IMG/VR virus record: IMGVR_UViG_3300047284_000070
Location: 1-31,666 of that record
Length of the DNA: 31,666 nucleotides
Strand: one strand, 5' to 3'
DNA from: a virus
A program made the position numbers and the translations under genes. The notes beneath the pieces were generated by a model. It made no database searches and was not told the origin of the DNA. It was given only the letters and a program-made list of their open reading frames with translations. This document shows, piece after piece, positions 7,638 to 22,736 of this stretch. How positions within the stretch are numbered: position 1 is the stretch's first letter; each line of letters begins with the position of its first letter.

Positions 7638-7853
7638 GTCTAGGTGCCATTGCTCCACGCCTGCCGGTGGCGCTGCGGCAGCCTCTTGCACTAGCCAGTG
7701 GATTTGCGACCGCTGGCTAGCTTCTTGCTCTGCCAACAGCAGTGCATACTCCAGCAATCCGCTCCAATCTGCTGCAGCATGTAACGCACGCAACTGCGCA
7801 GCGTTGGCAGCTCCGTGGAATTGTGCTTCCATTGTATGTTCTAACGGATTCAT
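7596..7853 (-). CDS. Small hypothetical protein on the opposite strand
   Basis: This frame fills the 217-base gap between dcd and the sigma gene, where the + strand has no gene. Starting at the ATG at 7853 it encodes 85 residues; an ATG at 7832 is an alternative. The sequence is strongly helical and alanine-rich (NAAQLRALHAAADWSG, then LEYALLLAEQEASQRSQ), with a basic end. It is convergent with dcd and divergent from sigma, with almost no room for a promoter. Codon quality suggests a real protein rather than chance, but no family is recognised and no ribosome site is obvious. Confidence 0.5.
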   Translation of the reverse strand: MNPLEHTMEAQFHGAANAAQLRALHAAADWSGLLEYALLLAEQEASQRSQIHWLVQEAAAAPPAGVEQWHLDLAEELLRGRRREI

Positions 7854-7854
7854 C

Positions 7855-8781
7855 ATGTCTGACGCCATTGGAGACTACTTGAACAATATCGCGCGTTATC
7901 CACTGCTAACGCCGCAGCAAGAGATACAACTTGGAAGGCGCGTCGCAAAGTGGAAGGAATTAAAAAACCTTGAGCGACCATTAACAACGCAAGAACGCCG
8001 CGAGTTTCGCAGTGGCGAACGCGCTCGCCAGCGATTCATGCAATCCAACTTGCAGCTTGTTGTGCATGTAGCGCGTAAATACAGCAAGCGCAATACGCAA
8101 ACACTGGACATGCTTGACCTCATCCAAGAGGGCAACATTGGTCTTGCGCGCGCCGTGGAGCTATTTGATTACAGCCGCGGTTACAAGTTCAGCACTTACG
8201 CCTACTGGTGGATCAGGCAGGCGATCGGTCGTGCATTGGTGCAATACGACCCAATCATCAGGCTGCCGCTTGGCGTGCATGAGATGCTGACCAAGCTCAA
8301 CAAGACTGCGCAGCAGTTTGCGCAGCAGCATGGCCGCACGGCAACCATGGCAGAACTTGCCGCGGTGCTTGAAGTATCGCCTAGCGTCATCTCTGACACC
8401 TTGCGGCAGGCGTATCGAGTGACAAGCCTCGACAAGCCAGCGCAGGAGGATTCATCCAACATCTTGGATCTGATCGCTGATGAAAAGCAATATGACGTTG
8501 AATATGACTGGCAGGTTGAAATCATCCGTGACTACTGCGAGGAGTATCTAGATGATCGGACGCGTGAAATCATCTATGCACGCAACAGCCGCAATCCTGT
8601 GCCATGGAATGACCTAGAGCAGCGCCTTGGCATTTCGCGCGGTCGCATGTGCGAATTGCAGAAGCGTGGCGTCAACCGCCTTCGTATGCTGATAGGCAAC
8701 CCACTGGCAGGCACACCACTTGGGTCCAACAATAAAGAAAGTCGGCAATCTATGGAGAGTCTGCCTAGCTGGGATGTGTAA
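7855..8781 (+). CDS. Sigma-70 family RNA polymerase sigma factor, cyanobacterial group-2-like
   Basis: A 308-residue sigma factor with regions 1.2, 2, 3 and 4. Region 1.2 (DAIGDYLNNIARYPLLT, 3-19) resembles cyanobacterial group-2 factors. Region 2 holds NLQLVVHVARKYSKR and LIQEGNIGLARAVELFD, and FSTYAYWWIRQAI (112-124) covers the -10 melting and recognition helix. RLPLGVHEML opens region 3. Region 4.2 (251-277, WNDLEQRLGISRGRMCELQK) is the -35 HTH but diverges from host factors. The ATG at 7855 is chosen over one 51 bases upstream because the conserved region begins there. It is the last gene of the rightward arm and probably directs host RNA polymerase to phage middle or late promoters. Confidence 0.92.
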   Translation: MSDAIGDYLNNIARYPLLTPQQEIQLGRRVAKWKELKNLERPLTTQERREFRSGERARQRFMQSNLQLVVHVARKYSKRNTQTLDMLDLIQEGNIGLARAVELFDYSRGYKFSTYAYWWIRQAIGRALVQYDPIIRLPLGVHEMLTKLNKTAQQFAQQHGRTATMAELAAVLEVSPSVISDTLRQAYRVTSLDKPAQEDSSNILDLIADEKQYDVEYDWQVEIIRDYCEEYLDDRTREIIYARNSRNPVPWNDLEQRLGISRGRMCELQKRGVNRLRMLIGNPLAGTPLGSNNKESRQSMESLPSWDV

Positions 8782-9131: not shown

Positions 9132-10190
9132 TCAGTAGTCCCATCGTACACGCGGTCTGCCTCGCCTCATGCCAAGATGCACAAACCCTTTTGGCGCACC
9201 GTAACCCAAGCTGTATGGCCAATTTGCATCACACCATTCCTGCACGTGGTTGATGTTGACCTCACGAATGTAGAAGTCAACAGCACCTACATCAGGTGCA
9301 TCGTATAGATGCTCGCTGCCACTGGCGCCGCCTACCGCTGCATTGATGGCACGCGGACGGTAGCCGCTGGTGATGATTACAGGCTTGCCGCCAAACTTGA
9401 CGCGCGCACGCTCTAGGAATGCCGCTAGCTCTGCTGCAGTGTCGAGCTGGTATTGATGGTCAAAACGTCGTGCCTCTTGGAACAATGCAAACTCACCAAG
9501 CTGCACATGCGGCGTGATGCGCGCAGTAAATGCACTGTTTGGCGTCAGCTTGGCTGGGTTTTGCTGCTGCTCGCCAGCCCATAGCCTGCCTTCTGCGCGG
9601 CGACGCCGCAGCAATCCAGCCTCGACGTTGCTGCCTGGGTTGCGGTACAACTCCATCGCTGCGGGCACTGCCCGCCAATCCTTGCCAGCAAGTGCCTTGC
9701 TGATGGTGTCAAAGCCAGTGCTGCCGTAAAAGCCAGCGCCAAGGTTGTAGGCAAACGACAGTAGCGCGCATTGCTTGTTGCCGCTCATCTCATTCCAAAA
9801 CGGCACACTGCTGCGCAACTTGGATGCAATGCGTTCAACCTCAAGGTCCAGCAACTGATCAGCGTCGATCACGGTGATCTTGTCGCCGCGTTGCACCTTA
9901 CGCCCATCTGAGTAGCGCGTGGTGCCATAGCCGATGGTTGCGACATCCCATCCATGCAGCGGATCGGGATAGGCGCTAAGGTGCACACCTTCAAACTCCT
10001 TGATGAGCTTGACTGCTGCGCCGTAGTCATGCAGCTTGCCGCCAGCCTGCCAGGTCTTATACCAAGGCTGATCCCTGTCAAAGACCTGCGGCGCAACCTT
10101 TAATAGCTCCGCCTCAAGTTCAGACACGGCAGCCATTTGATGTGGCGTGCCGTGCTTGTAATACTTAAACAGATCTGACAGCTTGATCAT
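9132..10190 (-). CDS. Endolysin: GH24 lysozyme fused to M15-type peptidase
   Basis: A 352-residue protein with two cell-wall hydrolase domains. Residues about 58-205 form a GH24 (T4-like) muramidase with the E-D-T triad visible as KEFEG (E67), AYPDP (D76) and ATIGYG (T85), plus LLSFAYNLG. Residues about 235-352 resemble an M15/VanY-type zinc peptidase: TSGYRP (275-279), GSEHLY (H294), GAVDF (D305) and GFVHLG (H338) give the usual His-Asp-His set. The pair would cut both glycan and peptide stem. There is no signal peptide, so release depends on the upstream holin candidates. The start overlaps the stop of a small membrane protein gene (ATGA). Roles follow from the families. Confidence 0.92.
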   Translation of the reverse strand: MIKLSDLFKYYKHGTPHQMAAVSELEAELLKVAPQVFDRDQPWYKTWQAGGKLHDYGAAVKLIKEFEGVHLSAYPDPLHGWDVATIGYGTTRYSDGRKVQRGDKITVIDADQLLDLEVERIASKLRSSVPFWNEMSGNKQCALLSFAYNLGAGFYGSTGFDTISKALAGKDWRAVPAAMELYRNPGSNVEAGLLRRRRAEGRLWAGEQQQNPAKLTPNSAFTARITPHVQLGEFALFQEARRFDHQYQLDTAAELAAFLERARVKFGGKPVIITSGYRPRAINAAVGGASGSEHLYDAPDVGAVDFYIREVNINHVQEWCDANWPYSLGYGAPKGFVHLGMRRGRPRVRWDY

Positions 10191-12369: not shown

Positions 12370-13143
12370 TTAAGACCAGCCGCCTACATTGGTATTTGCA
12401 CCTGCTGCACCGATCGGTCGCAGCTTGATGTACGAGCCTGCGTTGGTGGTAAATACAGGTGTTGCGCTGCTGAATGTCACCTGCGGCGTGAAGGTAGTGG
12501 CGGAGTTGACCGAGATGGTGCCCTTGGCTTGGATGTTGAAGTAGTCGTTGGCGAGGCTTGTTGTTAATTGTGTTGCGGCTGTGGTTGATAGGAATCCCAT
12601 TCCGTCTGGTGTTGCTCCAATAGTGCTGCCAGGATCCTCATCCCATGTGACGATGTATTGATAGTGGAAGTTATTCGGTGCATTGCCGCAAGCGAAGCCA
12701 ATGCTGACATTCACTGATGTGGCATTCGGATCACACTTCAGCATCGCCACCATCTCAAACTCATAGACGGTGCTCGCTAGCAGGCTGCAGCCAACGCCAA
12801 AAATGCTCTGCGCAGTATTGACACCAGCCAGCAGCAGGTCAGAGTTCAACCTAAACAAATGTGATGGCGCAAGACCAAGGAATGGGTAGGTGGTATTGCC
12901 AACCGTCACCCATCCATCATTGGCGCCATTGCGCATGTACAGCGTCGCCGGTGCATCCGTATCAACCCACCACATGTAGGCATACGCATCTGTGTCAGCC
13001 GTGACGCCAGGTGCAGTAGCAAGGCTGTTGTTGGTGGCAAGTGCCATCAACGCTTCGTTCAGATCGCTGCGGAACGACGCGCCAGCTTGGTTGCCGATGA
13101 CGAAGCTGTTTTCAGTAGCTACTGCAGGGGTGTGTTGTGGCAT
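12370..13143 (-). CDS. Putative tail/receptor-binding protein
   Basis: A 257-residue, glycine-, serine- and threonine-rich protein of beta character. Its N-terminal helix (FRSDLNEALMALATNN) followed by AYMWWVDTDAPATLYMRN is a pattern often found at the start of phage fibre proteins. The middle (LFRLNSDLLLAGVNTAQS, then YEFEMVAML) resembles a carbohydrate-binding jelly-roll. Its ATG overlaps the stop of gene J by one base. A role in fibre or receptor binding is inferred from position. Confidence 0.72.
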   Translation of the reverse strand: MPQHTPAVATENSFVIGNQAGASFRSDLNEALMALATNNSLATAPGVTADTDAYAYMWWVDTDAPATLYMRNGANDGWVTVGNTTYPFLGLAPSHLFRLNSDLLLAGVNTAQSIFGVGCSLLASTVYEFEMVAMLKCDPNATSVNVSIGFACGNAPNNFHYQYIVTWDEDPGSTIGATPDGMGFLSTTAATQLTTSLANDYFNIQAKGTISVNSATTFTPQVTFSSATPVFTTNAGSYIKLRPIGAAGANTNVGGWS

Positions 13144-16100
13144 CAGATGATCTCCTTGCCGTAACCGACGGCGGTGTATTGAAAGTCTCGCACGGCAGGT
13201 TTGTCGTTCTTGTCGTGGATCACAAGATCAACGCCAGTGCGGGTCAGTGTATCCAGTGTAAAGTAATCGCCTGATTCTGCGTTGAAGATCGTGATACCCA
13301 TTGTTGGTGCTTGGTAGAACGGATCCACGAAGGTAATCAAGAACGGTCCAGCAACAGTACCAGTACCAGTACCTGGCCCTGTAGCCGTGAACTTGGTGCC
13401 GATGTTGTTGTTTGCTGCACCGATCAGCGTGAAGTCAGTCGTGCCAACCGAAACGATGGTGTAATCACGTCCGGCTTGAATCTCTGCTGCAGTATTCAAC
13501 GTGTCGTGAACATCAGACTGCTCAGTGCGTTGCTGCATTTCAACTGCCACCGAAGCATTGGTGATCACCGGCGTTTGCGTTTCATCCGTGGTGCTAGCAA
13601 CCACGCGGAACTGAAATGCCCTGCCGCGCACTGTGGCATTGGCGAAGTCGCGCCAGTCGCTCCAGTCTGGGGTGCCGCTTGGATCATCTGTGGTTGTACG
13701 TACTTCCATTGCAGCATTGACGCGATCGCCTAGGTCGTCGATCGTGCTCCAAGTGTCGATCAAAGCATCCTTGGTATCCCACAATGCACCAGGGATATAG
13801 CTGCTGACAGTTAGTGTCCGCCGCAGATTGATGTCATAGACCTGCGATAGATCCAGCGCTGTTGGGTTCAGTAGATAGCTGCCCGTCTCAACAGATCCAC
13901 CGACGTTATCAATCGACTCCATCCCATCCCAGTTGCCGTCTTGCGCCATATCATCAACCCAGATGTCATTGGTCAGCGAGACACCGTTTAGCGCAGGGTC
14001 GTAGTAAGTGTTGTCGAATGATCCAGTGAACGGCGGATGCGTGATGGTTTGCACCGCCAGCCGCGGCAATGGTTCTGGCAGATCAACGATGATCGACGCC
14101 GCCGCAGTAGAACGGTTGCCGGTGTCATCTTCAAACTTGATTAGGTAGGTGCCTTCCAGCAATGGCACCTGCTTCTGCGTTTGACCGCCAGCAGCGGCAG
14201 CCACGATCTCTTGCGCATTTTCCCAAACTGCACCCGACAGCGTTGCTTGGTGCCTGATCAGCACCTTGCCGTTGAGGATAACGTCTAGCTCGGTGCTGCG
14301 GTTCCAGCTAATGACGGCACTAGCTTGGTCGATAGCAATGAGACTCAACCCAGTCGGTGTTGCTGGCGGAGCAGTTTTGCCGACTGCTTCGATCTGCGTT
14401 GTAGCAGCAGTTGGCGACAGCCTTAGGTTGTCAGGGTTGACGCTGTAAACCTCAATGTCATAGGTGCCAGCAAGCGCAACATCAATGCCGTAGGCAAGCG
14501 TCTGCTGATCGACCTCTGTCCAGTTGCCATCATCAATCCGCCAGCGGACGCGGTAAACATCAACGCCATCTACCGCTGGCCACGACACATCAATCTGCGC
14601 CAGCACAATGCCATTGCTTGCAAAGATGCGCTCTGTGGCATCCACGTATGTTGGCGCTTCGTAGACGATGTTTAGGTTGGTGATGTCACGCTGCTGCAGC
14701 GGTACGTCACGCTCGATGTAGTCGTATTTGGTGCTGTTGTAGGCAACTGCGCTGATTGTGTATAGAGCTTCATCTTGCTCGGCAATGCTGATCACGCGCC
14801 AAGTGGATGCCTCTAAATCTGCTGTCTGGTACACCCAGATGCTGTTTGGATTCGGTGCGCTGCTATACGCACTGCTGACCGTGATGACATTGCCAACAAT
14901 GCTGCTGACGGTTTTTGATTCAACCGTCCCATCAGACAGGATCACAGATAGCGTCGGGCTGGTGCCAAGTACCAAGTCGGTGGCATCATCAACGGTGATT
15001 GCAGTTGTCGTTGCAGATGCAATGCGACCACCACGGCGCTGCTGGCTGCGGGTTGGATCTGCGATCTCGATGATCTGACCAGGCTGCACGATCACGCCAG
15101 CATCAAGCGATGCCGTGAACGACACCACCTGCGTCTCGTAGCGATTCGAGTACAGCAGCCACTCACCAAGGCGATGTGCTTGCCCACGACTGGTGCAGGC
15201 GAACGCTTGAATCTCAGCCTTCTGCACGCCGTAACGCTGAATGCCGTCTAGATCCTCGACAACCTCCTGCGCGATGTCACGTGTCTCCATGTTGAAATAC
15301 GAGACAACAGCAACAGTTGGGCGTCCCTTTAGATTGCTGTTTTGATAGGCGAAGCCTTCCTCTGTGACATTCGCCAGCGTGAATAGATGCGCGATTGAAT
15401 CCGGTGCATCCTGCGCAATGCTTAGTGAGCCCTCCGTCCAAAACGGCATGGCGCGAAACACTGAGCACAGATCATTAACCAGCTTGTATGCATCTTCTGA
15501 TGACTGAATGTTGACGTTGCAGGAGAAGCGTGGCTCTTGCCCGCCAAAGCCATCGGGCACAGTGGCGCCACAATATTGACTGGCGCTGAAGAATGACCAC
15601 TTATCAAGTTGCGCTGGCTGAATGTGATCGCCAAACCCATAGCGCTTTGATGTCAACAGATCCCATAAGATCCATGCTGGGTCGCTGCACCATTCCTTAT
15701 TGGCTTTGAAATTACCTCCCCATGCGCCGCTGTATGACAGCGCGCCGGTGGATTGATTGACTGTGGCATTATCTGGTATTGCAATCTTGATGCCACGCAC
15801 GCGATAGCTGCGTGATGGAATGTTGCCAATCTGCCTTGCATCTAACCTGATGCCAACCAGTGCTGCATTGGGATAGCGCAGTCTGCCATAGATGATCTTG
15901 GTGTATGACGACCATTCAAAACGATCGCGCAATGATGCCTTGGTTGAATCTGCAGTGACTCGCGTCACCTTAATGTCAACCGGAAATGCGCCATCGATCT
16001 CGATCTGGTAATCGCGGTTGTAGGGATCAAGTGTCTTGCCGTTGATCGTGTCATCAATAACGGTGACATACGATCCACCGCTGTAGCGCCGTGCAATCTG

Positions 16101-16463
16101 CACGCGCACCTTGGCGCCTTTGCTGCCATTGCTGGAGAACAGCACAGGGAATCGCAGGGTCACGCGCACTGCATCGACGTTGTTATCGGTGATCGTGCGG
16201 ATGACTGGATTATCTTTTTCTACGGTTGCGCCGACTGTTCGCTCTTCATCAATCGACTGATCGCCGAACTTAATCGGTGCTTGATCTTTGGTGCCTACTG
16301 CGGTCGTATCGACGCTGACGTTTTGGAAGTTGCGCCGCCCATTGCTATCACGCAGTGGCGTGTTATCAAAGAAGATAGATGCCTCACCATCAACCAAGCC
16401 CTCGATCTCACCTTCGCTGATCAGGTCGATGATCTGCGTGTATTGCGTAGATTGCAGCGCCAT
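13143..16463 (-). CDS. J: Tail tip attachment protein J (central fibre)
   Basis: A 1106-residue protein matching the lambda gpJ family, which forms the tail tip hub and host-recognition fibre. The N-terminus has QIIDLISEGEIEGLVDG and a hub region with DITNLNIVYEAPTYV. Fibronectin type III-like segments follow (about 640-850, with PATPTGLSLIAID). The C-terminal region holds FVDPFYQAPTMGI and RDFQYTAVGYG, a conserved ending of J-like proteins. About residues 989-1040 are a glycine/threonine-rich module (DYTIVSVGTTDFTLIGAA, then FTATGPGTGTGTV) inserted before that ending. The gene order I-J and the size are lambda-like. It overlaps gene I by one base. Confidence 0.92.
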   Translation of the reverse strand: MALQSTQYTQIIDLISEGEIEGLVDGEASIFFDNTPLRDSNGRRNFQNVSVDTTAVGTKDQAPIKFGDQSIDEERTVGATVEKDNPVIRTITDNNVDAVRVTLRFPVLFSSNGSKGAKVRVQIARRYSGGSYVTVIDDTINGKTLDPYNRDYQIEIDGAFPVDIKVTRVTADSTKASLRDRFEWSSYTKIIYGRLRYPNAALVGIRLDARQIGNIPSRSYRVRGIKIAIPDNATVNQSTGALSYSGAWGGNFKANKEWCSDPAWILWDLLTSKRYGFGDHIQPAQLDKWSFFSASQYCGATVPDGFGGQEPRFSCNVNIQSSEDAYKLVNDLCSVFRAMPFWTEGSLSIAQDAPDSIAHLFTLANVTEEGFAYQNSNLKGRPTVAVVSYFNMETRDIAQEVVEDLDGIQRYGVQKAEIQAFACTSRGQAHRLGEWLLYSNRYETQVVSFTASLDAGVIVQPGQIIEIADPTRSQQRRGGRIASATTTAITVDDATDLVLGTSPTLSVILSDGTVESKTVSSIVGNVITVSSAYSSAPNPNSIWVYQTADLEASTWRVISIAEQDEALYTISAVAYNSTKYDYIERDVPLQQRDITNLNIVYEAPTYVDATERIFASNGIVLAQIDVSWPAVDGVDVYRVRWRIDDGNWTEVDQQTLAYGIDVALAGTYDIEVYSVNPDNLRLSPTAATTQIEAVGKTAPPATPTGLSLIAIDQASAVISWNRSTELDVILNGKVLIRHQATLSGAVWENAQEIVAAAAGGQTQKQVPLLEGTYLIKFEDDTGNRSTAAASIIVDLPEPLPRLAVQTITHPPFTGSFDNTYYDPALNGVSLTNDIWVDDMAQDGNWDGMESIDNVGGSVETGSYLLNPTALDLSQVYDINLRRTLTVSSYIPGALWDTKDALIDTWSTIDDLGDRVNAAMEVRTTTDDPSGTPDWSDWRDFANATVRGRAFQFRVVASTTDETQTPVITNASVAVEMQQRTEQSDVHDTLNTAAEIQAGRDYTIVSVGTTDFTLIGAANNNIGTKFTATGPGTGTGTVAGPFLITFVDPFYQAPTMGITIFNAESGDYFTLDTLTRTGVDLVIHDKNDKPAVRDFQYTAVGYGKEII

Positions 16464-17098
16464 CAGCCTTTTACCTGCACTGTATCGAGTCCGGCACTGA
16501 TCACCACTGATCCAGTGATCACTTCACCGTAAACGATTGGCACCGGAACGCCAGCGCGAGCAGTATTCTGCACGCCGCTAAAACTGAAGTTAGATCGTGG
16601 ATCCTTTGACTGCGCGATTGGCATTGGCGATGCTGCAACACCAACCTGCGGCGCTGGCTGTGTAAGCGCAGATGATGCGTAGGCAAGACCTGCACCAACA
16701 GCGCCGAGGGTGATGATCCGCCCGATGTCACCGCCAATGATGGTGCCAAGTATGGCGCCGCCAAGCGCAACCAAGCCGCCAGTTATCAGGTTGCTGCTGC
16801 TGCTTGCTTGCTTTTGATTGCGACGATCAATATCCTCTTGCGTTCTAGCAATCTCACCCGAGAACACCGGCACAATACGCAATTCTTGCGCACCGAGTGG
16901 ATCATTCAGCTCCTCGTAGCCGGTCAGCCTGTAGTCACCGATATAGATTGCATACCACTGATTCAGGATGTGCTGCTTCACCTGCGGATAGTTTGCCGCT
17001 AGGAATCGAAATGCTTCGGCTGGTGTGCTAATTGCTGCCTTGAATACCCGCTGCCCGATGCACTTCGCTAGCTGCCCATACACTCGGATGGTATTCAT
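16463..17098 (-). CDS. I: Tail assembly protein I
   Basis: A 211-residue protein matching lambda gpI. MNTIRVYGQLAKCIGQRVF opens a ubiquitin/RnfH-like N-terminal domain, and LRIVPVFSGE ends it. A glycine-rich hydrophobic stretch (GGLVALGGAILGTIIGGDI) comes next, then a C-terminal GVPVPIVYGEVITGS. The ATG at 17098 is chosen by comparison with lambda I; another in-frame ATG at 17125 adds nine residues. Either start overlaps gene K out of frame by 71 or 98 bases. It helps assemble the tail tip with K and is thought to be absent from the mature virion. Confidence 0.88.
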   Translation of the reverse strand: MNTIRVYGQLAKCIGQRVFKAAISTPAEAFRFLAANYPQVKQHILNQWYAIYIGDYRLTGYEELNDPLGAQELRIVPVFSGEIARTQEDIDRRNQKQASSSSNLITGGLVALGGAILGTIIGGDIGRIITLGAVGAGLAYASSALTQPAPQVGVAASPMPIAQSKDPRSNFSFSGVQNTARAGVPVPIVYGEVITGSVVISAGLDTVQVKG

Positions 17099-17429
17099 CG
17101 GACCATTGCTCGGTGCGTGGATCAATGATAAACCAGCTCAATCCGCTGAGTTGTATCCCTCTGATGTCCAGTCTAGATGGCTGAATGCTGCCGCCTGGAT
17201 GACTGTGAATGATCGCTAGCACAGTGCCTGAGTCTTCTGCTGCTGCGTAGTCCAGCGGATCCATGGCGAATTCCTCGCCGCTGTTTGCCATGTTGCGACA
17301 CGGCCAGTAGATCACCGCATCTGGCTCAAGCTCCACCAGTAGCCCGCACGATTCATTGGGGTCTTGCTGCTTTGCGTGCTGCATTGCAGCATCACGCCAA
17401 GTAAGTGCTGACACCAGGGAAGCCTCCAA
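17028..17429 (-). CDS. Tail assembly protein K-like JAMM/MPN peptidase
   Basis: A 133-residue JAMM metallopeptidase-like protein. E26 (in NESCGLL), H75 and H77 (IIHSHPGG), S85 and D88 (SRLD) give the complete JAMM E...HxH-x7-S-x2-D set. Lambda gpK joins this domain to an NlpC/P60 peptidase, which is absent here. Its position between L and I matches K. It may process a tail component or cut peptidoglycan cross-bridges. The stop lies inside gene I; the end after HPSVWAA is probably a non-conserved tail. Confidence 0.86.
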   Translation of the reverse strand: MEASLVSALTWRDAAMQHAKQQDPNESCGLLVELEPDAVIYWPCRNMANSGEEFAMDPLDYAAAEDSGTVLAIIHSHPGGSIQPSRLDIRGIQLSGLSWFIIDPRTEQWSDEYHPSVWAASEVHRAAGIQGSN

Positions 17430-18873
17430 AGTTCAAGATGCCGTTAGTGCGGAAGATGTAGTTTTGATCCGGTGTTGAGAATGTATAGGAGGTGCTTGGT
17501 TGTGCCTGTACTTCATAGAAGCTGTAGGTGCCTTCACTGCCGTTCACTTTGCCTTCAAATGACACATAAATGCGCGTCAACCCGCTGCTGTTGCTGATGA
17601 TGCTACCAACCCTAGCTGCATCTGCCTCGGCAATCGTAGGGCCAATAACATACAACCCGGATACGATATTTGTTCTGTTTGGCACCACAATCATCCTGCT
17701 AGTTGGATCTGGATCGCGCGGGTTAGATGCATAGCCAAACTCCTGCACCTTGAGATAGGAGCTTGACTTGGTAGTGATCAACGTTGCGATGTTCAACCAT
17801 GGCACAGGCTGGCTAAGCGTTACCGTAGTGCCGCTGATCTCAGCAATGGTCGTGCCGGTTTGGATGTTAGGTCCGGTCACAATCATGCCAACAGCTAAGC
17901 CTGCCGCTGATGCCACCGTGAGCGTTGTCCTGCCGGTACTCAGTGTTGCTGTCGTGCTAACAACGCTTGTAGCTGTAGCGTTGGCGCTCATTGTCACGAT
18001 GTTGCCGCTGACGCTAGATACCGTTGCGCCAGATGGCACGCCAAATCCTTTGACCGGAAATCCTGCCGCGATGGATGTGCCATCAGTTAGCACAAGTTGA
18101 TTGCTGCCGCTTGTGATATTGCCGGTCCTAACGATCTGACCAAACCTGCGCTCGCAACTGCTCAGCCGCTTGCCGCATACATCCTCAGCAAGTGTTGCAA
18201 CTGGATTGTCGTCAACGTCAAAATACTGCGTGCCGTTGTACTGGCAGGTTTCAGAATCGCGGTACACCCAAGGGCAGTAGGTGCTGACGCATTCACGTTT
18301 TGGCGCACGCACACCGCTTAGGTCGAAAACTGAAGCAAGCTCAAACTGCACAACATCACGGTTCTCAAGTGCAGTGCGGTCAATGTAGAACACCTGACGC
18401 GGAAACTCCGCCGTAGGGTCTGGGCTGTAGGGGCTGACTCCACCAGGGAAGTTATCGGCGTCGATGTAGCGCGCCAACGTGCGGATGCGCGTGACCTTGG
18501 CGCCTTCAATGCCACGCGGCAGACTAAGGATCAACCCGGTGATCGTGCCGAGCAGATTGCTCATCGTGAGCGTTGGACGCGGCAGCGTGCCATTGCCACT
18601 CATCTCAAAGCCTTCAGCTTGAACAGGAAACCACGAGTAGGTGTTGCCGTTCCATATCAAACCACCGGGCTCTTGCGCAGTGGTATCGCCGTTTTCGTAC
18701 AACAGCAGTGTGCTATTCTCGGCCTGCAAAGCACCGCCAGGTTGCAGATTGATGCCTGCGTGGAAGCGGTACACATCCGCTACGCCATGCTGCGCAACAT
18801 TAAGCTCTAGCTCAAACAGCTCAATGAGTGCGCCAGGGTTGATCTCCTGTAGTGCCGCAAATGGGACTGCCAT
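17392..18873 (-). CDS. L: Minor tail protein L with internal insertion
   Basis: A 493-residue protein of the lambda gpL type, which sits at the tail tip and holds an iron-sulfur cluster in its C-terminal part. Five cysteines (195, 200, 210, 233, 240; for example KRECVSTYCPW and CGKRLSSCERRFG) match the metal-binding region. Lambda L continues almost directly into a short NFGG-containing end. Here the equivalent NFGGFPGVSTYLA appears only at residue 481. Residues about 246-480 are an extra block with Ig-like repeat segments (GNITSGSNQLVLTDGTS; SGATVSSVSGNIVTMSANAT; GTTIAEISGTTVTLS). It overlaps K by 38 bases and M by one. The insertion is inferred from comparison by memory. Confidence 0.9.
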   Translation of the reverse strand: MAVPFAALQEINPGALIELFELELNVAQHGVADVYRFHAGINLQPGGALQAENSTLLLYENGDTTAQEPGGLIWNGNTYSWFPVQAEGFEMSGNGTLPRPTLTMSNLLGTITGLILSLPRGIEGAKVTRIRTLARYIDADNFPGGVSPYSPDPTAEFPRQVFYIDRTALENRDVVQFELASVFDLSGVRAPKRECVSTYCPWVYRDSETCQYNGTQYFDVDDNPVATLAEDVCGKRLSSCERRFGQIVRTGNITSGSNQLVLTDGTSIAAGFPVKGFGVPSGATVSSVSGNIVTMSANATATSVVSTTATLSTGRTTLTVASAAGLAVGMIVTGPNIQTGTTIAEISGTTVTLSQPVPWLNIATLITTKSSSYLKVQEFGYASNPRDPDPTSRMIVVPNRTNIVSGLYVIGPTIAEADAARVGSIISNSSGLTRIYVSFEGKVNGSEGTYSFYEVQAQPSTSYTFSTPDQNYIFRTNGILNFGGFPGVSTYLA

Positions 18874-21365: not shown

Positions 21366-21898
21366 CTACCGCCGTGACTTAGCGCGATCCATTGCTTCCT
21401 TCTCGCGCTTGCCTTTCACTTCATAGTAGGCAGCAAAGTGAACAAACTCAGCATCAGTCAGCTCAGTGCGTAACCGGCTGACTGTCATGCCGAGTTCTGT
21501 AGCAAGGAAGAACTCAAAGAATAACCATGAGTCTTCCTCTAGGCTTTTTTTGCTTCCTCAAGGCTGGGCTCACCGCCAAGACCAAACAAGAACAGCTCAA
21601 GCTCGTTCAGCACACGCTCCGGCAGCTCGCGTTGCAGCTTGGCTGCATCAGCCGGTGCAAACGCCTTGGTGCCGTCCTCAAGCTCTGCCACTTGACACAG
21701 CACCTGCGTGCTGATGTCGAGCGCTTCATCGCCACCAGCAAGCGCCATCGCCTTCTTGCGATCAGCGCGAGTCACCGGCTTGAAGTACAGATCCATCACC
21801 ACAGTGCCGTCGTCTTTAGTGACTTCAAACTTGCGGCGCTGGTTGAGATCAAAAGCGCCCGTGAGTAGATCAACCGGGCGCTGGTTTGCAGCAGGCAT
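21366..21898 (-). CDS. Tail assembly chaperone GT (-1 frameshift fusion)
   Basis: A -1 frameshift at the A7 tract (21551-21545, reading the - strand) joins the G frame to a second open frame that ends at 21366. It gives a predicted 177-residue fusion: 118 residues of G plus 59 (EEDSWLFFEFFLATELGMT, then SRLRTELTDAEFVHFAAYYE). The second frame has no plausible start of its own. Its content resembles the T extension of phage tail chaperones. A GAGG sequence (21559-21556) sits just upstream of the slip site, as in dnaX-like shifts. GT would bind the tape measure and recruit tail-tube subunits. The fusion is predicted, not observed. Confidence 0.82.
21539..21898 (-). CDS. Tail assembly chaperone G (unshifted product)
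   Basis: A 119-residue protein at the position of lambda gpG, between the tail tube and tape measure genes. It begins MPAANQRPVDLLTGAFDLN, has a domain with KFEVTKDDGTVVMDLYFKP, and ends EAKKA, so the A7 tract is two codons before the stop. The product is a chaperone thought to keep tape measure soluble, with GT made by frameshifting at a fixed ratio. It overlaps the start of the tape-measure-proximal frame only through the shift. Confidence 0.85.
   Translation of the reverse strand: MPAANQRPVDLLTGAFDLNQRRKFEVTKDDGTVVMDLYFKPVTRADRKKAMALAGGDEALDISTQVLCQVAELEDGTKAFAPADAAKLQRELPERVLNELELFLFGLGGEPSLEEAKKA
21545..21551 (-). promoter_or_regulatory. Programmed -1 ribosomal frameshift site
   Basis: On the - strand, seven adenines read A-AAA-AAA in the G frame, a canonical slippery heptamer. 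They lie two codons before the G stop. A GAGG stretch four bases upstream could act as an internal Shine-Dalgarno stimulator. The -1 frame then stays open for 59 codons. Confidence 0.82.
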
Positions 21899-22317
21899 CA
21901 GATAGAAAGCGTGAGTGTTCCGGACGTCACGAACGAGACTGTAACGATCTCGATCTCGCCAACGGTAGCACTGTATTCAGTGCTAGTCACGACCACGCTA
22001 CCGGTGATCTTTTTGCCGCCGGTTTCATCAAGGTACAACTCAACAAAGGCATCAGCCTCGTCGGTTGCTTGGTTGACGTCTTTGATCAGGTCCAGCTTGT
22101 CGCCAGCGCCTGGTGCGTCATACATCAACTCGATGGTGCCGCTGCCGCTGATCAGTCCACCTACGTTGGCGCGATAGGTGTCGCCGTGAGTAGTGGAGTC
22201 ATAGGATTCCTTCTCAACGGTCATGCTCCACGACCGCACGGCAGCGATCTCGGATACACCGCCGCTGCCTGCCTTATCAAAGAAGACAGTGCCTTGTTGT
22301 CCGCGATAGAAAGCCAT
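21898..22317 (-). CDS. Tail tube protein, copy 2
   Basis: A 139-residue tail-tube-type protein, second in transcription order of two adjacent paralogues. MAFYRGQQG at the start, SMTVEKES, DTYRANVGGLISGSGTIEL, and YSATVGEIEIVTVSFVTSG are nearly shared with copy 1. These strands correspond to the beta-sandwich of phage major tail proteins. It may build the tube together with, or in place of, copy 1. Its stop overlaps the start of G by one base. Confidence 0.85.
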   Translation of the reverse strand: MAFYRGQQGTVFFDKAGSGGVSEIAAVRSWSMTVEKESYDSTTHGDTYRANVGGLISGSGTIELMYDAPGAGDKLDLIKDVNQATDEADAFVELYLDETGGKKITGSVVVTSTEYSATVGEIEIVTVSFVTSGTLTLSI

Positions 22318-22319
22318 GA

Positions 22320-22736
22320 TCAGATGTCCAGGGTGATGGTGCCGTTGGTCACGAAGCTGACCGTGATCACTTCAATCTCGCCAACGGTGGCGGAGTATTC
22401 AGCAGAGGTTACGACACCATCAAAGCTGATCTTTTTTGTGCCAGCGGTGTCAAGGTACAGCTCAAACAATGCAGTGCCTGCATCGTTTGCAGTGTTGACG
22501 TATTCGATGAAGACGTTGGTTTCATCGGCGCTGCTGGCTGTGTACATCAGCTCGCAGGTGCCGGAGCCGCTGATCAAACCGCCGACATTACCACGATAGG
22601 TATCACCCAGTGCGGTGGTGTCGAGCGATTCCTTTTCAACAGTCAGCGACCATGCACGAGTGCTGGCGATTGTTACTGCAGTGGAACCAGCATCGTCAAA
22701 CTTGACGCTGCCTTGCTGCCCTCGGTAAAAAGCCAT
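22320..22736 (-). CDS. Tail tube protein, copy 1
   Basis: A 138-residue paralogue of the following gene. It shares MAFYRGQQG, SLTVEKES, GDTYRGNVGGLISGSGTCEL and YSATVGEIEVITVSFVTNG. Differences cluster in the middle loop (about 66-95) and in the N-terminal variable loop. Both copies carry complete folds, so neither is an obvious pseudogene. The two genes are separated by two bases and arose by tandem duplication. Confidence 0.85.
   Translation of the reverse strand: MAFYRGQQGSVKFDDAGSTAVTIASTRAWSLTVEKESLDTTALGDTYRGNVGGLISGSGTCELMYTASSADETNVFIEYVNTANDAGTALFELYLDTAGTKKISFDGVVTSAEYSATVGEIEVITVSFVTNGTITLDI

Follow-up and report, generated by a model that had tools for sequence, protein, structure and literature searches.

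The window studied here is a virus record of 31,666 bases, and its tail-tip gene raises a question: what are the 235 residues that separate the metal-binding cysteines of a lambda-type minor tail protein L (gpL) from its conserved end, how did they come to be there, and what might they do? The gene, its parts and its downstream neighbors are arranged as follows.

17392-18873, minus strand: gpL-type tail tip (hub) protein of 493 aa, the carrier of the insertion
18379-18873, minus strand: N-terminal hub domain I region, residues 1-165, from the match to lambda gpL, the domain name being that used in the accessible part of PMC10721106
18142-18378, minus strand: Fe-S domain region, residues 166-244, from the cysteine alignment and the lambda ligands
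18274-18276, 18244-18246, 18175-18177 and 18154-18156, minus strand: Fe-S cysteines C200, C210, C233 and C240, respectively
17437-18141, minus strand: insert, residues 245-479, with limits set by alignment of relatives
17392-17436, minus strand: conserved C-terminal end LNFGGFPGVSTYLA, residues 480-493, and the stop codon
17028-17429, minus strand: JAB-domain tail protein (K-like), overlapping the end of L
16463-17125, minus strand: tail assembly protein (I-like)
13143-16463, minus strand: central tail fiber J

Judged by its sequence, the window protein is a true minor tail protein L. It scored 178.4 bits against Pfam PF05100 (cut-off 25) and 191 bits against NCBIfam TIGR01600 (cut-off 70.75), at the sequence level it matched lambda L together with three further tip proteins of known structure, and its fold resembles that of lambda L (8iyk_L; Foldseek E 1.9e-14, Z 17.6). 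A gpM-like gene flanks the L gene on one side and genes resembling K, I and J follow on the other, in the M-L-K-I-J order of tail genes. All four cysteines are invariant among 41 aligned sequences and align with those of lambda, whose gpL, as described in the accessible part of PMC10721106, uses Cys173, 182, 205 and 212 as ligands of a [4Fe-4S] cluster and forms a trimer at the tail tip. With lambda gpL and the two family models the window protein shares hub domain I, the Fe-S domain with its four cysteines and the L-K-I-J order; unlike it, lambda gpL has 232 aa and no insert, and the alignment between the two reaches the end of the cysteine cluster.

The insert sits between an SCxxRF motif and the final FGG block. 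A preliminary description of this DNA had placed it at 17434-18138, which captured a real insertion with limits one codon off the aligned ones. It had also proposed that lambda-type L proteins are short at this point and that a domain had entered the C-terminal metal-binding end, and both proposals were borne out: in the L protein of Synechococcus phage S-H1 (233 aa) the residues SCAKRF are joined directly to TSGLLPFGGFPG, the four cysteines of the window protein are kept, and insert-free relatives define the limits of the added piece.

Altogether we compared 86 L proteins, comprising 85 from two viral scans and that of S-H1; L011 and L012 were left out, being on the same contigs as L003 and L004. 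Two of the 86 end before the insert site. Among the 84 assessable proteins, the comparison with relatives that had been suggested earlier showed a long insert in 28 (two of which run off a contig end) and, in the other 56, an SCxxRF motif set apart from the FGG-type block by just 4-5 residues, counts that are not population frequencies because the viral sampling was biased, the gpL scan contributing the best 80 of 584 matches. The insert was absent from all 37 gpL homologues from bacterial and archaeal genomes. In a phage collection searched by tblastn only, 1515 records matched L and none covered 80% of the query, while the insert alone gave only a 35-residue match to S-H38 (two records, E 0.3). 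The module is not peculiar to the window's phage: when viral sequences were scanned with an alignment of the inserts, at least 99 stretches proved to encode it. Of the best 80 of these 99, a script placed 78 at the gpL site, and the remaining two were recognized as gpL by eye (L129, whose contig begins nine residues upstream, and L141, whose alignment begins early); this agreement of 80 out of 80 is partly expected and cannot prove confinement to gpL, since the single search pattern was built from gpL inserts.

Internally, the insert consists of three homologous repeats followed by closing strands.

17950-18123, minus strand: repeat unit 1, residues 251-308 (unit profile, i-Evalue 4.4e-24)
17776-17949, minus strand: repeat unit 2, residues 309-366 (unit profile, i-Evalue 9e-22)
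17518-17697, minus strand: repeat unit 3, divergent, approximately residues 393-452 (E 7.5e-9 to unit 2)
17437-17517, minus strand: closing strands, residues 453-479, which, from the aligned ranges, appear to complete barrels 2 and 1

Duplicated VSGxxVTxS units had been reported here previously. The repetition is indeed beyond chance in profile-profile comparisons (units 1 and 2, E=1.7e-12; units 2 and 3, E=7.5e-9; units 1 and 3, E=5.4e-5); the units number three and not two, and the motif is better written [VI]SGxxVTxS (VSGNIVTMS, ISGTTVTLS), being degenerate in unit 3. A 58-position unit profile made from these inserts scored 80 bits on unit 1 and 73 bits on unit 2, and matched no other reading frame of the window. 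The tandem unit consensus found nothing in the phage collection, a result that the BLAST low-complexity filter may explain.

Structure prediction, which had been proposed as a check, was performed with AlphaFold2 on the whole L protein and on the insert alone. In the former, pLDDT was 91-97 in 11 of 12 ten-residue blocks of residues 251-370; the latter reached pLDDT 89 and pTM 0.79. The insert is confidently predicted to fold separately, with its units modeled at high confidence as small six-stranded β-barrels. Single contiguous solved barrels align to insert residues 1-235 using merely 64-71 residues, others align to 60-222 (about 61-63 residues used) and to approximately 117-212, and the whole-L model returns the same three ranges (244-478, 304-468 and 364-456). 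These ranges, in which single barrels span the insert, suggest that in the model the barrels are apparently nested, unit 1 being closed by insert residues 223-235, unit 2 by about 212-222, and unit 3 lying in the center. Two closing-strand residues (Y219 and F221, counted within the insert) do not vary among 25 sequences. All 25 complete aligned inserts hold the whole three-unit module; copies with just one or two units turned up only where a contig is cut short.

The Ig-like assignment made earlier found no support from sequence families. The window insert matched no Pfam family at E<=10, and none of the 25 insert members matched an Ig family at E<=0.1. Weak matches of single members among these 25, to FlgK_2nd, PE-PPE, Calycin_like, Iron_permease and Peptidase_M23, were taken as chance, as was the only match of the insert profile to solved structures (Pumilio, E 1.8). 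Foldseek gave no PDB match for the insert at E<=0.001; antibody chains among its matches had probabilities of 0.12 or less and were disregarded.

Three solved folds matched the insert at Z>=8, values near 8 being borderline according to the tool's own note: the capsid decoration protein of phage Bridgette (8eci_1; Z 8.6, rmsd 1.7 over 62 residues, 29% identity), a tail-tube domain of phage Mystique (Z 8.0) and the insertion barrel of the LKA1 tailspike gp49 (4ru4, residues 284-370; Z 8.0, rmsd 2.5 over 71 residues). The Bridgette protein shows 29-35% identity to the insert across 57-62 residues; it differs in being a decoration protein with a single barrel, and its sequence-profile E-value is only 0.049. 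The LKA1 barrel is likewise six-stranded and located within a host-facing protein; it differs in being single, in its 18% identity and in residing in a tailspike enzyme. Similar barrels are also found on capsids and tail tubes, as in the decoration protein, the P22 capsid and the T1 tail tube. Among predicted viral proteins, the best fold matches were uncharacterized, structural and fiber proteins, several of them from cyanophages such as S-CAM3, Syn30 and ACG-2014, and PHROGs tied 10 of 25 inserts to a family of virion structural proteins and 7 of 25 to an unnamed one. The Ig-like label is not absurd, since the T1 tail-tube domain, which matches the window L model at Z 6.2, was termed Ig-like by its authors in the accessible text of PMC11945409. 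On balance, an Ig-like identity of the insert is not well supported, and its nearest folds, as far as the models indicate, are small β-barrels.

The history of the insert was examined on trees of the L core. With the insert removed, a tree of 77 cores requires at least 6 changes in insert presence, 3 of them forced by well-supported branches; a larger tree of 84, for which 12 genome homologues served as the root, requires 7 changes, 2 of them forced. All 12 outgroup rows are without the insert, which argues that the short form is ancestral for this set and that the insert has more than once been acquired, passed on or lost. Its absence from the 37 genome homologues, and from the phage-isolate records as searched, likewise points to a derived state. 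The insert is the faster-evolving part, with a mean identity of 42% as compared to 64% for the core (62 sequences), and insert and core distances are correlated (Mantel r 0.83, with 0 of 999 permutations as high). One protein, L205, has 80-83% core identity to a group and just 31-34% in the insert, a clear case of replacement as far as the sequences tell. The window L and its close relatives L002, L003 and L004 have cores that are 95-97% alike, with inserts at 83-94%. In five pairs, dN/dS was 0.06-0.18 for the insert and 0.03-0.06 for the core, values which imply that the insert is translated and constrained by purifying selection.

Phylogenetically informative sites within this close group change their grouping along the genome. 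In units 1-3 they are distributed 61:3:2, pairing the window with L002 and L003 with L004, as compared to 5:19:4 upstream within L (Fisher p 6e-12) and 6:25:15 in the first kilobase downstream (Fisher p 3e-14). This difference from the adjoining L and downstream DNA indicates that the insert was exchanged between close relatives. It is not a unique recombination hot spot, since other tail-module blocks also switch topology: sites at -4500 to -2500 upstream group as in the insert (25:3:7), and those at +1000 to 2000 support a third grouping (2:8:30).

Other gpL relatives carry unrelated insertions elsewhere in the protein. In a survey of insertion sites, a regular expression parsed 82 of 118 proteins, and the sites were then read by eye. 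About 150 residues are inserted just before cysteine 3 in L055 (4001-5188) and L087 (3550-4800), where by eye the sequence looks like coiled coil. In L056, L079, L081 and L076 the insertion lies between cysteines 2 and 3, and in the first three it resembles the endosialidase β-barrel PF12195 with E-values of 3e-4 to 9e-3, below the Pfam cut-off. The first domain is the site of insertion in L090, L010 and L126. In L090 (4001-4846) the inserted sequence is made of repeated LLLEDGFELL-type units, to which a short stretch of the window L at residues ~50-65 (LLLYENGD) looks similar; L126 (6001-7968), a 656-aa gpL of Thermomonas haemolytica, has about 400 residues inserted, which match the tail protein family phrog_5939 (E 7e-75); and the large insert of L010 looks cupredoxin-like. 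The cysteine cluster is wholly missing from L010 (5974-6963, marine virus AG-345-A17) and from L103 and L107 (contigs binned as Maricaulis). All three retain the final FPSIGT end, and L010 and L103 read RAPKRQCTR..EFPSIGTFIA.

Extra domains are also known from published hubs, here cited from the accessible parts of the respective papers. In the RcGTA hub g13 and the roseophage R4C hub, the Fe-S domain is interrupted by a domain called oligosaccharide-binding (PMC7296036, PMC10276861). For RcGTA the name was given because the domain resembles the tailspike barrel of LKA1, and the crystal paper on that barrel goes no further than a possible part in substrate binding (PMC5701251). As in the window, these hubs are gpL-type with an extra domain in the Fe-S region, and the LKA1 barrel after which the RcGTA domain was named also matches the window insert, at the borderline Z of 8.0. 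Apparently in contrast, the RcGTA/R4C domain, with limits from the published description, is a single one of about 82 residues located between two Fe-S segments, whereas the window insert has 235 residues in three repeats and lies beyond all four cysteines. A 2026 paper on the LSH1 and Jersey hubs reports that the gpL C-terminal region is hypervariable and close to the cell wall. There the variation likewise falls on the C-terminal region, with the Fe-S domain replaced or truncated; the accessible text describes no large insert with the cysteines kept. We found no description of the window insert in the open-access literature searched. Extra domains in hubs of other phages are known; this module and its position look like a new form of that arrangement.

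As to function, we lean toward an accessory role in adhesion, with the insert exposed on the surface of the outer Fe-S domain at the tail tip. Its exposure there would follow by analogy with lambda, and glycan adhesion is suggested by the related folds and by the other domains in gpL relatives. If gpL forms a trimer as in lambda, each virion would carry three copies of the insert, that is, nine barrels around the tip. Their contacts with host surface polysaccharide would most likely be weak and numerous, and might help to keep the tip on the cell until J engages the receptor. Against adhesion, similar barrels on capsids and tail tubes need not bind the host. The main rival, in our judgment an unlikely one, is a structural role in which the barrels, with no host contact, strengthen the tip, whether by holding gpL against J or gpM or by covering the Fe-S cluster. 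The capsid decoration protein as nearest fold match, the similar barrels on tail tubes (9n71, 9l0f) and the purifying selection on the insert all agree with bracing, but 56 of the 84 assessable relatives manage without the insert, and its faster evolution and exchanged alleles fit a host-facing part better than structural decoration. Patchy presence on the core trees (6 or 7 changes) and rapid divergence could also describe a mobile passenger domain under loose constraint, which an exposed loop tolerates and which has no selected function; we find this improbable given the low dN/dS of the insert (0.06-0.18) and the full three-unit module in 25 of 25 complete copies, partial ones occurring only on contigs cut short.

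The remaining alternatives concern the nature and age of the insert. It is very improbable that gpL started out in the long form and that most lineages lost the insert. The patchy distribution, which permits several losses on the core tree, and the correlation of insert and core distances (Mantel r 0.83) speak for this, but the cultured phages and genome homologues examined are insert-free, including 12 of 12 outgroup rows and 37 of 37 genome homologues, and tblastn did not find the insert in phage records, where none of the 1515 that match L covers 80% of the query. The preliminary description had itself named a long ancestral form as the outcome that would overturn its reading, and the relatives examined do not show it. 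A self-splicing intein or intron, leaving a normal 258-residue L, would account for a clean in-frame insertion at one site, but it is scarcely credible and was rejected: no Hint or other splicing domain was detected in L at E<=0.1, no Rfam match was found in the window, the insert is constrained at the protein level, and its predicted β fold is confident on its own.

With regard to the host, the nearest relatives of window proteins include the L of cultured S-H1, the J of Prochlorococcus phage MED4-117, the L of a cyanobacterial MAG and the sigma factor of S-CBS1/S-CBS3, and these cyanophage and cyanobacterial affinities make a picocyanobacterial host likely. The sigma factor gene (7804-8781, plus strand) encodes a full sigma-70 type factor with regions 1.2 to 4, closest to the group 2 sigma factors of the Synechococcus siphoviruses S-CBS1 and S-CBS3 (41-46%). 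Elsewhere in the window, a predicted lysin (9132-10190, minus strand) combines a phage lysozyme domain with a peptidase M15 domain, both catalytic, and two adjacent similar genes (21898-22317 and 22320-22736, minus strand), both starting MAFYRGQQG, are by position perhaps duplicated tail tube genes. For the 1106-residue J, whose own insertion the preliminary description had paired with that in L, the best cultured relatives stop at about residue 929, leaving ~930-1106 mostly uncovered; a single Rhizobium phage matches across 99%, with 30% identity.

The functions of the lambda gpL Fe-S cluster remain to be characterized, according to the accessible part of PMC10721106. We see about even chances for the following reading: in uncultured siphoviruses, mostly of cyanophage type, the Fe-S end of gpL serves as a general plug-in platform, with several fixed entry points for unrelated domains around the cysteines, and the window version is built like a Russian doll, with barrel 3 in 2 in 1, its two ends meeting so that an exchange of the whole module leaves the metal site intact. 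Diverse surface domains at several points around the cysteines would make it plausible that this end acts as a socket for modules that contact the host. The insert itself is a defined piece of 235 residues, predicted to fold separately, in viruses of abundant aquatic bacteria. For lambda-like phages in general, receptor-facing variation may thus be worth looking for in L, beyond J and the side fibers.
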